Shown one piece after another: positions 8,320-13,348 of a DNA stretch of 34,208 nt (position 1 is its first letter; every line of letters starts with the position of its first letter). The notes under the pieces are model-generated. The model did not search any database, was not told where the DNA came from, and saw only the letters and a list, made by a program, of their open reading frames with translations. The translations under genes and the position numbers were made by a program. Location of the stretch: NCBI GenBank assembly GCA_021325435.1, contig JAJPHE010000154.1, positions 1-34,208 on the forward strand, written 5' to 3'. The stretch comes from Actinomycetota bacterium. Lineage in GTDB: Bacteria > Actinomycetota > Acidimicrobiia > Acidimicrobiales > JAJPHE01.

Positions 8320-9090
8320 ATGGCCCGGGTCCTGGTGGTTGACGACGAACCCGACATCGCCAAGCTCGTCCGCATCACGCTGGAGATGGACGGGCACGAG
8401 GTGACCGTCGCCAGCGACGGCCAGTCGGCGCTCGATCTGGTTGACGAGAACGCCTACGACGCCGTGCTGCTCGACCTCACGATGCCGGGCATGGACGGCT
8501 TCGACGTGCTCACCGCCCTCAAGTCCGACCCCGAGCCCTCCACCGCGTCGATCCCCGTCATCCTCCTCACCGCCCGCTCCGACCAGATGGACCGGATCCG
8601 GGGGGGCATCGAGGGGGCCGCCTTCTACCTGACCAAGCCGTTCTCGGGGTCGGACCTGCGGGCCCACCTCGGCCGCGCCCTCCAGGACGGAGCCGAGCCC
8701 GAGCTGCGCCGGGCCGCCCAGCGGGCCGCCCTCGAGCAGCTGGCTCGCATCGAGCGGGCCGAGCTCCAAGGCGGTGAGGACGTCCTCGAGGGCCAGGCCC
8801 GCCCCCGCCTGACCCGCCTCGACCACCCGCCGGAGCCTCGCCGGACCGCGCCCGGGCCGGCCCAGATCGACGCCGAAGCGGTGGCGTCGCTGTCCGACAA
8901 GCAGCGCGAGCTGCTCCGGGTGGTGCGCCAGACCCCGACCGTGCAACAGGCCGCCGCCGAGCTGGGGGTCAGCCGCTCGAACGTCTACGCCAGCCTCCGG
9001 CGCATCGCCCGGCGCCTCTCGGTGCCGAGCGTCCCCGAGCTGGTCAGCGTGGCCCGCCAGGGTGCGGTCCCCGGCCTCGCCGAGTCCTGA
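8320..9090 (+). CDS. Orphan response regulator with C-terminal helix-turn-helix
   Basis: 256 residues. An N-terminal receiver domain (1 to about 120) has the acidic pair Asp8/Asp9 in VVDDEP, the phospho-acceptor Asp52 in VLLDLTMPGMDGF, the Ser/Thr switch in ILLTARSD and the lysine in YLTKPFSGSDL. A charged linker rich in Arg, Pro and Glu follows. The C-terminus (about 195-250) holds a helix-turn-helix-like segment, VQQAAAELGVSRSNVYASLR, consistent with DNA binding; it resembles LuxR/sigma-region-4 folds but the family is not certain. No histidine kinase lies in the window. Its 3' end overlaps the chosen tilS start by 29 bases. Confidence 0.88.
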   Translation: MARVLVVDDEPDIAKLVRITLEMDGHEVTVASDGQSALDLVDENAYDAVLLDLTMPGMDGFDVLTALKSDPEPSTASIPVILLTARSDQMDRIRGGIEGAAFYLTKPFSGSDLRAHLGRALQDGAEPELRRAAQRAALEQLARIERAELQGGEDVLEGQARPRLTRLDHPPEPRRTAPGPAQIDAEAVASLSDKQRELLRVVRQTPTVQQAAAELGVSRSNVYASLRRIARRLSVPSVPELVSVARQGAVPGLAES

Positions 9091-10006
9091 ACCCGGCCAG
9101 CCGGCGGCGGAGCCGTCGGCCAGGGTCGTCCCGCGGCGCAGCGAGCTGTTGGCCCGCTGCGCCTTCCCGCCGGCGGGCACCGAGCTGACCTGCGCGGTGT
9201 CGGGAGGCGCCGACTCGATGGCGCTGATGATCCTCGCCGTGGAGGCCGGTTGCCGGGTGACCGCCGTCCACGTCGACCACGGGCTGCGGGCCGGCTCGTC
9301 CGCAGAGGCGGGTCTGGTGGCCGACGCCGCCGGCCGGTTCGGCGCCGCCTTCCGGTCCGAGCGGGTGGCGGTGGCCCCCGGCCCCAACCTCGAGGCCCGG
9401 GCCCGGGCCGCCCGTCGGCAGGTGCTGCCCCCCGACGCCGCCACCGGCCACACCGCCGACGACCAGGCCGAGACCATCCTGCTCAACCTGGTGCGAGGGG
9501 CGGGGCTCGACGGGCTCGCCGGCATCCGCCCCGGCCCCCGCCACCCCATCCTCGCCCTGCGCCGGGTCGAGACCCGCCAGCTGTGCGCCGAGCTCGGCGT
9601 GGCCATCGTCGAGGACCCCAGCAACGACGATCCGAGCCACCGGCGCAACCGGATCCGCCACCAGCTGCTGCCGCTGCTCGACGAGATCGCCGAGCGCGAC
9701 GTGGCCGCCGTTGTCGCCCGCCAGGCCGCCCTCCTCGCCGACGACGCCGACCTGCTCGACGCCCTCGCCGCCTCCATCGACCCGACGTCGGTCGCCGAGC
9801 TGGCGGCGGCGCCGGCGCCCCTCGCCCGCCGGGCCCTGCGCAGTTGGCTGCGCCAGGCCGACCCCGAAGGCGAGGCCCACCCCCCGACGCTCACCACCCT
9901 CGAGCGGGTGCTGGCCGTGGCCCGCCACGAGGCCCGTTCGGCCCAGATCGGCGGGGGGATCTCCGTCCACCGCCGAGCCGGACGGCTGCGCATCGAGCGC
10001 GGTTAG
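9062..10006 (+). CDS. tilS: tRNA(Ile)-lysidine synthetase
   Basis: Modifies C34 of tRNA-Ile(CAU) to lysidine with ATP and lysine, so that it reads AUA. 314 residues. The ATP pyrophosphatase PP-loop SGGADS is at residues 47-52, followed by VHVDHGLR and GHTADDQAETILLNLVRG. The NRIRHQLLPLL motif is also present. The C-terminal domain is short, as in other actinobacteria. The GTG at 9062 gives about 46 residues before the PP-loop and overlaps the regulator gene by 29 bases; a TTG at 9149 is an alternative with a short N-terminus. tilS followed by hpt is a classic bacterial arrangement. Confidence 0.92.
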   Translation: MRSPASPSPEPGQPAAEPSARVVPRRSELLARCAFPPAGTELTCAVSGGADSMALMILAVEAGCRVTAVHVDHGLRAGSSAEAGLVADAAGRFGAAFRSERVAVAPGPNLEARARAARRQVLPPDAATGHTADDQAETILLNLVRGAGLDGLAGIRPGPRHPILALRRVETRQLCAELGVAIVEDPSNDDPSHRRNRIRHQLLPLLDEIAERDVAAVVARQAALLADDADLLDALAASIDPTSVAELAAAPAPLARRALRSWLRQADPEGEAHPPTLTTLERVLAVARHEARSAQIGGGISVHRRAGRLRIERG

Positions 10007-10597: not shown

Positions 10598-11167
10598 GTG
10601 GGAGTGGATGTCGCCCGCGTCGAGCGGGCGGTGCGCGAGATCCTCGCCGCCGTGGGGGAGGACCCCGACCGCGACGGGCTGGCCCGCACGCCGGCGCGGG
10701 TGGCGGCCATGTACGCCGAGGTGTTCTCCGGGCTGGCCGAGGACCCCGCCGACCACCTGGCCGTCACCTTCGAGCTGGATCACGACGAGATGGTCATGAT
10801 CCGCGACATCCCCTTCTACAGCGTGTGCGAGCACCACCTGGTGCCGTTCATCGGCAAGGCCCACGTCGCCTACATCCCGAACGACGACGGCCGCATCACC
10901 GGGCTGTCCAAGCTGGCCCGGCTGGTCGAGGGGTTCTCCCGCCGGCCCCAGGTCCAGGAGCGGCTGACCACCCAGATCGCCGACGCCCTCGTCGAACGGC
11001 TCGAGCCCCGGGGCGTGCTCGTCGTCATCGAGGCCGAGCACCTCTGCATGTCCATGCGGGGGGTGCGCAAGCCCGGCACCGTCACGGTGACGTCCCAGGT
11101 CAGGGGGCTCTTTCGTACCAATCCGGCCACCCGGGCCGAGGCGGTCCAGTTCATCCACGGTCACTGA
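10598..11167 (+). CDS. folE: GTP cyclohydrolase I (type IA)
   Basis: First enzyme of folate synthesis: GTP to 7,8-dihydroneopterin triphosphate plus formate. 189 residues from GTG 10598; a second GTG at 10604 is nearly as good and better spaced from a G-rich SD-like run. The zinc and catalytic residues are in [12 protein letters not shown] (Cys77, His79, His80) and in [11 protein letters not shown] (second zinc cysteine). [16 protein letters not shown] is the usual N-terminal motif and the protein ends at the family's conserved C-terminus. It opens the folate part of the cluster (folE, folP, phosphatase-like gene, folB, folK). Confidence 0.96.
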
Positions 11168-11185
11168 CCGGCCAGTGGCCACCGG

Positions 11186-11191
11186 TACTCT
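11186..11191 (+). promoter_or_regulatory. -10-like TACTCT, leaderless promoter for folP
   Basis: TACTCT lies exactly 7 bases before the ATG at 11199. A weak -35 match CTGACC occurs at 11164-11169 with a 16-base spacer. This favours 11199 over the upstream GTG at 11175 as the folP start. Confidence 0.5.
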
Positions 11192-11198
11192 GGCCCTC

Positions 11199-11975
11199 AT
11201 GCGGCCCCTCGTCATGGGCGTGCTGAACGTCACCCCCGACTCGTTCTCCGACGGCGGGGAGTGGTTCGAAGCCGACGCCGCCGTGGCCCGGGGACTGGAG
11301 ATGGCCGAAGAGGGTGCCGACGTGGTCGACGTCGGGGGCGAGTCGAGCCGGCCCGGGGCCGACCCCGTCCCCCAGGAGGAGGAGCTGCGCCGGGTCGTGC
11401 CGGTCGTGGCCGCCCTCGCCCCCCGGGTGCGGGTGTCGATCGACACGGTGAAGCCGGCCGTGGCCCGGGCCGCCGTCGAGGCCGGCGCCACTCTCATCAA
11501 CGACATATCCGGCACCCTGGCCTCGGTGGCCGCCCAGGCCGGGGTCGGCTGGGTGGCCATGCACATGCGAGGGGACCCGAAGACCATGCAGTCCCTCGCC
11601 GCCTACGACGACGTGGTGGGCGAGGTGTGCGCCCGCCTGGCCGAGCTGGTCGCCGGGGCCGAGGCCGCCGGCATCGAGGAGGTCTGGGTCGACCCGGGCC
11701 TGGGCTTCGCCAAGACCGCCGCCCACAACCTGGCCCTCCTCGCCTCCCTCGACCGGTTGGCCGCCCTGGGGCGGCCGGTGCTGGTGGGCGCGAGCCGCAA
11801 GAGCTTCCTCGGCCCGCTGTCCGCCCGCGCCGGTGAGGACCCCGCCCCGGTCGACGACCGGGCCGAGGCGTCCCTGGCCGCGGCGGTGTGGGCCATGGAC
11901 CGGGGGGCGGCCATGGTGCGGGTCCACGACGTGGCCGCCACCCTGCAGGCCGCCGCCCTGGTGGGGGAGGGCTGA
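11199..11975 (+). CDS. folP: Dihydropteroate synthase
   Basis: Condenses 6-hydroxymethyl-dihydropterin pyrophosphate with p-aminobenzoate; the sulfonamide target. 258 residues from ATG 11199. Signatures in order: MGVLNVTPDSFSDGG (residues 6-20), VDVGGESSRPGA, VSIDTVKP, LINDISGT, VDPGLGFAKT and VLVGASRKSF. The protein begins MRPLVMGVLNV, the usual distance from the first loop; the GTG at 11175 would add eight residues upstream of a -10-like hexamer. A purine-rich GGGGGAGG near its end serves the next gene. Confidence 0.96.
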   Translation: MRPLVMGVLNVTPDSFSDGGEWFEADAAVARGLEMAEEGADVVDVGGESSRPGADPVPQEEELRRVVPVVAALAPRVRVSIDTVKPAVARAAVEAGATLINDISGTLASVAAQAGVGWVAMHMRGDPKTMQSLAAYDDVVGEVCARLAELVAGAEAAGIEEVWVDPGLGFAKTAAHNLALLASLDRLAALGRPVLVGASRKSFLGPLSARAGEDPAPVDDRAEASLAAAVWAMDRGAAMVRVHDVAATLQAAALVGEG

Positions 11976-11976
11976 G

Positions 11977-12477
11977 GTGCCGATGAAGGGACGGTGGGCG
12001 GCGGGCATCCCGCCCCGCAACTTCACCTGGATCCTGGCCGACCAGCTGGCGGTCAGCGAGCGCCCCGGCGGCTACGCCCGCAACCACCGCAAGGTCCGCC
12101 GCCAGGAGGAGATCATCTGGCTGCGCGAGCAGGGCTTCACCCGCATCGTGTCGCTGCTGCACTCCCCCCACAACCTCCACGCCTACGAGGAGGAGGGGAT
12201 CAACTGGTCGCACATGCCGGTGGCGACCAGCGGCGACGTGACCGAGGAGCTCACCGACCTCTTCCGCAGCGTCGACGCCTGGCTGGCCGCCGGCGAGCGG
12301 CTGCTGGTCCACCAAGAGGAGCTCGGGGACCGGGTCATGGGCGTGATGGCCGGCTACCTGCTGTGGACCCGCCGGCTGGAGGACCCGCCCCAGGCGGTGA
12401 CGGTCATCGAGCGCATGCTGAAGCGGCACATGGGGCCGTCCGGGCGCGAGCTGCTGACCATGGTGAAGCCCGCCTGA
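11977..12477 (+). CDS. Tyrosine/dual-specificity phosphatase-like protein without the catalytic cysteine
   Basis: 166 residues from GTG 11977 (GGGGGAGG at 11963-11970 is well spaced); ATG 11983 is the alternative. The layout resembles small PTP/DSP folds: a strand with GFTRIVSLLHSP, then INWSHMPVATSGDVTEELTD, then a P-loop-like segment LLVHQEELGDRVMGVMAGYLL. The family signature is His-Cys-x5-Arg; here it reads His112-Gln113-x5-Arg119, so the nucleophile is Gln (codon CAA, 12313-12315) while the His, the Arg and the helix after it remain. By known mechanism it should not act as a cysteine phosphatase. It lies one base after folP and 30 before folB, so it is probably made with the folate enzymes. 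A phosphate/pterin-binding or regulatory role is a guess; the fold call itself is by eye. Confidence 0.65.
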   Translation: MPMKGRWAAGIPPRNFTWILADQLAVSERPGGYARNHRKVRRQEEIIWLREQGFTRIVSLLHSPHNLHAYEEEGINWSHMPVATSGDVTEELTDLFRSVDAWLAAGERLLVHQEELGDRVMGVMAGYLLWTRRLEDPPQAVTVIERMLKRHMGPSGRELLTMVKPA

Positions 12478-12507
12478 GGGCGGGCGGTCCGCTGGGGGTG
12501 ATAGTTG

Positions 12508-12867
12508 GTGGCCGACTCGATTCAGGTGCGGGGGCTGCGGGTGATGGGCACCCACGGGGTGTTGCCCGAGGAGCGCCAGCGGGCCCAGCCCTTCGAGGTC
12601 GACCTCGACCTGCAGGTGGACGTCACCCGGGCCGGCGCCACCGACGACCTCGACGACACGGTCGACTACGGGGCGGTGATCGAGCTGGTCGACCGGCTGG
12701 TCTCCACCGAGAGCTGCCGCCTGCTCGAGACCCTCGCCCAGCGCATCGCCGACGCCGTCTTGTCCGAGCCGACCGTGGCCGCCGTCACCGTGGCCGTGCG
12801 CAAGCTGCACCCCCCGGTCGCCGCCGACGTCACCTCGGTAGGGGTGAGCATCACCCGCTCCCGTTGA
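12508..12867 (+). CDS. folB: Dihydroneopterin aldolase
   Basis: Cleaves 7,8-dihydroneopterin to 6-hydroxymethyl-dihydropterin and glycolaldehyde. 119 residues, typical. Features: IQVRGLRVMGTHGVLPEER with the active-site Glu, TVDYGAVIELVDRL, LLETLAQRIADAVL and the C-terminal VAVRKLHPPVA with the catalytic Lys. GTG 12508 is preceded by GGGGGTG at 12494-12500 (7-base spacing); TTG at 12505 is in frame directly before it. folK follows after 7 bases. Confidence 0.94.
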   Translation: MADSIQVRGLRVMGTHGVLPEERQRAQPFEVDLDLQVDVTRAGATDDLDDTVDYGAVIELVDRLVSTESCRLLETLAQRIADAVLSEPTVAAVTVAVRKLHPPVAADVTSVGVSITRSR

Positions 12868-12874
12868 CGTCCCG

Positions 12875-13348
12875 GTGAGGGCCTTCCTCGGCCTCGGCTC
12901 CAACCTGGGGGACCGCTGGGCCCACCTGCGTTCGGCGGTGGAGGCGCTGCGAGCCGCCGCCGCCGTCACCTCGGTGCGGGTGTCCCCCGTCTACGAGACG
13001 GACCCGGTCGGCGGCCCCGAGGGGCAGGGCCCCTACCTGAACGCGGTGGCCGAGCTGACCACGACCCTCGACCCCAGGGCCCTTCTCGACCTGGCCCACG
13101 CCCTCGAGGAGGCGGCCGGCCGGGTGCGGGCCGAGCGCTGGGGCCCCCGCACCCTCGACGTCGACGTCCTGCTGCTCGGCGACGCCGGGGAGATCGCCGT
13201 CGACGAGGCGGACCTGGTGGTGCCCCACCCCCGGATGTGGGAGCGCCGCTTCGTCGTCGCCCCCCTCTCCGACCTGGCCCCCGAGCTGGTTCGGGACGGG
13301 TCGGAGGCCCGGCTGGAAGGAAAAGTCCGCCGGGTGGGTAATCTGTAA
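12875..13348 (+). CDS. folK: 2-amino-4-hydroxy-6-hydroxymethyldihydropteridine diphosphokinase (HPPK)
   Basis: Pyrophosphorylates 6-hydroxymethyl-dihydropterin with ATP to make the FolP substrate. 157 residues. Signatures: [16 protein letters not shown] at the N-terminus, [21 protein letters not shown], the HPPK motif [16 protein letters not shown] (about residues 88-103) and [20 protein letters not shown]. The GTG start lies immediately before the conserved N-terminus. It ends the folate block; a small gap with a possible promoter leads into panC. Confidence 0.96.

Follow-up and report, generated by a model that had tools for sequence, protein, structure and literature searches.

The gene between folP and folB in this stretch of DNA, here called X, is best read as encoding a class-wide, normally single-copy pseudophosphatase that is not dedicated to folate synthesis. 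Its place among the fol genes is best explained as the reflection of a frozen tilS-hpt-fol-pan cluster and not of a folate reaction, and X probably does another job because it is kept where the folate genes have been lost.

Location and start of gene X

The window (the whole stretch of 34,208 nucleotides that was analysed) contains an open reading frame at 11977-12477 on the forward strand, which translates to 166 amino acids free of internal stops. The ATG at 11983 is a likelier start than the GTG at 11977, which would add two residues, because the orthologues begin there: their N-termini read M/V-[KR]-G-[KR]-W-A, with the same Met/Val as that of the ATG. X is accordingly placed at 11983..12477 (+; 164 aa), and its residues are numbered from this ATG, so that H112, Q113 and R119 of the preliminary description become H110, Q111 and R117.

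X starts a few bases from the stop codon of folP (dihydropteroate synthase; 11175..11975, +; TIGR01496, E = 1.1e-86), and a gap of 27 bp separates its end from folB (dihydroneopterin aldolase; 12505..12867, +; TIGR00525, E = 3.9e-34), which is followed by folK (12875..13348, +; TIGR01498, E = 4.1e-41). Further upstream are folE (10622..11167, +; TIGR00063), for which 10622 is the beginning of the family match and not an assigned start codon, and tilS (9062..10006, +; TIGR02432, E = 1.7e-33), the neighbour of X in lineages without fol genes. NCBIfam cut-offs were exceeded in the window by tilS, hpt, folE, folP, folB, folK and panC, and the placement of X between folP and folB given in the preliminary description, with folE and folP upstream and folB and folK downstream, is upheld. 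On another contig the source genome carries a second dihydropteroate synthase-like gene above the family cut-off (G000:C157:1445-2203, -).

Predicted fold

No curated Pfam model covers the X of the window; PF22785 (Tc-R-P) alone matches, at 13.9 bits against a cut-off of 27, and a single-sequence search found no matching NCBIfam model. Searched over 57 members of the X family, PF00782 (DSPc) gave a best E-value of 0.0042 and no score above its curated cut-off. A profile of the 57 orthologues matched the DSP-family structure PDB 25xa with E = 1.4e-10, and an AF2 model of X built with 81 sequences had a mean pLDDT of 90.6 and a pTM of 0.87. The top Foldseek match of this model was human DUSP23/VHZ (E = 2.3e-8), which VIA-align also ranked first (Z 18.3, rmsd 2.2, 144 residues). 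We regard a PTP/DSP fold for X as secure at the level of prediction, and the comparison with DSP folds bears out the PTP/DSP likeness that had been proposed from the reading frame.

DUSP23/VHZ and small DSPs from bacteria and archaea (PDB 2img, 4erc, 25xa and Tk-PTP 5z59) have the fold of X over nearly the whole chain, and 25xa and X have a common N-terminal W...LA.S..PGG pattern. All these DSPs carry the catalytic Cys loop, whereas in X neither the Cys nor the P-loop Gly nor the general acid is left; the conserved basic stretch of X is in turn absent from 25xa. No active DSP paralogue was found in the source genome with PF00782, an insensitive model that misses X as well.

Loss of the catalytic residues

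The former phosphate loop of X (12310..12333, +; codons 110-117) reads HQEELGDR in place of HCX5R, and a CAA codon for Gln111 stands where the catalytic Cys is expected. The preliminary description, which had reported Gln for Cys in an HCX5R-like signature (H112-Q113-EELGD-R119 in its numbering), was therefore correct for this frame. Column counts were made over 136 distinct Acidimicrobiales rows of X. At position 111, the nucleophile site, these rows hold Q (77), G (19), A (9), R (9), H (8), E (4), a few other residues and a single Cys, so that the catalytic Cys is absent in 135 of 136; the one Cys-bearing row reads HCEEVSDK and is without the CX5R Arg. Because the loss is family-wide, Q111 cannot be put down to a recent mutation or to a sequencing error. 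The HCX5R signature with its catalytic Cys, the mark of an active Cys-based PTP/DSP, was not found in any of the 136 rows.

The P-loop Gly position, 114, is Gly in none of the 136 rows and is hydrophobic in all but one, and the general-acid Asp, which lies in the PLPDF stretch of 25xa, falls, in the sequence alignment, on a column of the X profile that is poorly conserved. The active-site Cys is the nucleophile in PTP chemistry. Catalysis by X through the Cys route is excluded by this established chemistry, in agreement with the earlier claim that normal catalysis should be impossible.

It had also been stated that the His and Arg of the signature remain, and across the family this proved true of the His only. 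H110 is invariant across the 136 rows; the CX5R Arg (R117) is present in 115 of them, is replaced by Thr or Ala in the other orders sampled and by Trp in distant homologues. Position 112 is Asp or Glu in 134 of 136 rows and position 116 in 135 of 136, and this acid pair recurs outside the order, both in the further orders that were sampled and in three aligned rows of distant homologues. The former phosphate loop of X is thus acidic (H-x-[DE]-x3-[DE]) and is now negatively charged, and for this reason a pterin phosphate would be unlikely to bind in the former pocket. With a PTP/DSP fold, its catalytic residues lost and its sequence conserved, the X family is a pseudophosphatase by sequence and model criteria.

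A conserved N-terminal motif

Conservation in X has shifted from the active site to an N-terminal motif. There are 27 columns with at least 95% identity, and 20 of them fall in residues 5-50, with three in residues 52-106, one in the pseudo P-loop and three in residues 119-160. The core of the motif, E26-R27-P28-G29-G30-x4-H35-R36-x2-R39-R40-x-E42-E43-x2-W46 (12058..12120, +; codons 26-46; column counts over the 136 rows), is where the family is conserved most strongly and is a putative binding loop; it is absent from the preliminary description. The motif region contains a six-residue stretch that is missing in 25xa, and the mean pLDDT of the AF2 model is only 61 over residues 31-40. A loop that is conserved yet modelled with low confidence has the look expected of a binding loop that is ordered by its ligand. 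One orthologue (L157:6392-7828, the same gene as L037) has an in-frame extension, a long tail rich in Lys and Ala such as nucleic-acid-binding proteins often carry.

Relation to described pseudophosphatases

STYX and MK-STYX are DSP-type proteins without the catalytic Cys that have been described as regulators, and their activity returns when the Cys is restored (PMC8269279). By description X resembles them as a Cys-less DSP-type protein, but they are eukaryotic, and they are reactivated by the Cys alone whereas X is altered at several further active-site positions. PTPRU has an inactive PTP-type domain that still binds partners (PMC7320164); this human receptor domain still has its Cys and owes its inactivity to a rearrangement, whereas in X the Cys is lost. 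These three proteins are precedents for non-catalytic PTP/DSP proteins, all of them eukaryotic. The main text of a 2021 review of pseudophosphatases has no words starting with "bacteri" or "prokaryot" (PMC8269279), and our literature search for bacterial pseudophosphatases gave nothing specific. Pseudophosphatases have been described mainly in eukaryotes, and X is a bacterial one, present in 93% of the genomes sampled from its order; its signature of invariant residues offers direct targets for mutation.

Distribution of X and a sister family

The survey covered 200 genomes of the order Acidimicrobiales that were at least 95% complete, together with partial samples of the class and phylum; family numbers such as f7 and f33 were assigned within the analysis. 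X was found in 186 of the 200 near-complete genomes (93%). One genome has two equally scoring copies of X on one contig (G534:C50:33153-33635, -, and 34736-35218, +) and folK doubled likewise in opposite orientation, which is probably an assembly artefact. That X might be a mobile gene was considered and rejected, as there was no plasmid match and a single weak, partial phage match (E = 6e-3).

Six of the genomes sampled elsewhere in the phylum, all from a single family of another class, also carry a homologue of X (hhalign against X, E = 5.1e-21). The aligned rows of this sister family have the N-terminal motif of X as well as D at 112 and E at 116; they differ in having HCD and no CX5R Arg, so that both the motif and the acid pair occur in forms with and without the Cys. 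In the one sister-family locus that was read, the neighbours, judged by eye, are glycosyltransferase- or polysaccharide-like and give no hint of the function of X.

Linkage to the folate genes and its dissociation

The order folP-X-folB was present in 77 of 80 loci from named genomes. Two of the remaining three are cut by a contig end, and the third (L105) is a true exception in which X is followed by folK with no folE, folP or folB nearby. In an initial set of 57 loci the order was present in 46; the loci without it came from family f7 and from the genome of L019/L105. Linkage of X to the fol genes is therefore strong. However, a longer string, tilS-hpt-folE-folP-X-folB-folK-panC-panD-nadB, was commonly retained in the 80 named loci, and linkage to the fol genes is weak evidence of a folate role because the order of the tilS, hpt, pan and nadB neighbours is conserved too. 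Mycobacteria have a similar gene string, in which X is not known to occur, and the cluster is therefore probably older than X.

Across the same 200 genomes, folK was found in 189 and folE in 173, and the presence of X did not track that of the folate pathway. X was present in all 11 folK-less genomes and in all 27 folE-less genomes, seven of the latter being identified by their absence from the list of folE positives, and both folE and folK were present in all 14 genomes without X. Thirteen of these 14 make up family f33; the fourteenth, G510, has a contig that ends inside folB, and X may merely be missing from its assembly. In G034 (f33) and in G051, folP is followed directly by folB with no X between them, and fol genes are thus kept without X in family f33 and in G051. 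Several of the X-less f33 genomes have a divergent folE (as at L168:6513-6956, -), which in G034 falls below the family cut-off and in seven others has E-values of about 1e-48 to 1e-35, against about 1e-70 elsewhere.

Nine genomes from four families keep X while both folE and folK are gone: G126, G178, G200, G565 and G574 in f7, G529 in f18, G536 in f125, and G549 and G573 in f35. None of the nine has folE2 or a DHPS above the cut-off, G126 having a weak match inside a frame of 1351 aa. Among them, G565 consists of one contig only and is rated 99% complete. Seven of the nine loci were read, all but those of G549 and G573, and in each X follows tilS or tilS-hpt. X is under purifying selection in the folate-less genomes: NG86 dN/dS was about 0.10-0.18 where computable in pairs among G126, G178, G200 and G574, with synonymous sites near saturation in several pairs, and X was better conserved than tilS in the same pairs. 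Decay of an unneeded gene is ruled out by these values. Many of the genomes are metagenome assemblies and single gene absences are therefore weak evidence; what carries the argument is that the families agree, together with the one single-contig genome. A literature search on folate auxotrophy in Acidimicrobiia found nothing specific.

Possible functions of X

The preliminary description had suggested that X might bind a phosphorylated pterin or act as a scaffold or regulator. As a component of the folate pathway X would bind or process dihydroneopterin triphosphate or monophosphate, or act as a scaffold for FolP, FolB and FolK. The gap that it would fill is real, as the gene for the DHNTP pyrophosphatase is missing in most bacterial genomes, and the known folate hydrolases FolQ (Nudix) and FolQ2 (HDIG) are located in folate gene clusters as X is (PMC1971073). 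FolQ and FolQ2 belong to other hydrolase superfamilies (PMC1971073), however, and X is kept in genomes that lack the folate pathway. An enzyme or scaffold that served folate synthesis specifically would be expected to vanish with its pathway; X persists in four families without it and is lacking in f33 genomes that have folE and folK, and we therefore consider a folate component improbable despite the folP-X-folB order, and X a poor candidate for the missing FolQ step. This near-perfect operon linkage failed to predict the function of X because a frozen cluster mimics functional linkage, as the pathway-losing lineages revealed, and it is a caution for similar cases.

On balance we lean towards X being a catalytically dead DSP-fold protein that has been retained as a binding module. 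With its invariant basic loop near the N-terminus (R27, H35, R36, R39 and R40) it would grip a partner, which may be a protein, an RNA or another phosphorylated ligand. This loop would sit beside the old active site, a closeness of the two loops taken from the general DSP fold, and the acidic former P-loop (H110, D/E112 and D/E116) may hold the basic loop or the ligand. Two observations speak against this reading: the CX5R Arg in 115 of 136 rows suggests that some anion binding is possible, and most genomes hold X in the fol cluster, where it may have a second, folate-linked role. A bolder proposal, which we put forward tentatively, is that X founds a family in which a phosphatase fold was remodelled to give a new ligand site, composed of the acidic former P-loop and the invariant basic loop, with an undescribed and near-universal housekeeping function in Acidimicrobiia and a sister family in another class.

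It is unlikely, though deserving of some weight, that X is an enzyme of a new, Cys-independent chemistry that uses His110, Asp/Glu112 and Asp/Glu116 together with the basic loop. The invariance of the His, the near-invariance of the two acids and the recurrence of the acid pair beyond the order are consistent with such an enzyme; no known relative works in this way, however, a structural or binding role would account for the acids equally well, and the neighbourhood suggests no substrate. More doubtful than any of these is that X is a partner of TilS, or of another protein that modifies RNA, and binds RNA through the basic loop. In several families the folate-less lineages have X directly after tilS or tilS-hpt, and the long Lys-rich tail of the L037/L157 orthologue would suit such a partner, but that tail comes from one genome, staying in place after the deletion of neighbours requires no functional link, and the family without X keeps tilS (L168).

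Family f7 has two further peculiarities. In loci L151-L155, L160, L162 and L164, tilS-X is immediately preceded by genes for a sigma factor and its putative anti-sigma factor. Several f7 genomes have a short, divergent DHPS-like frame, below the cut-off, beside folB-folK on the opposite strand (G008:C1:2325390-2326019, G147:C6:50431-51057 and G305:C1:1227945-1228571).
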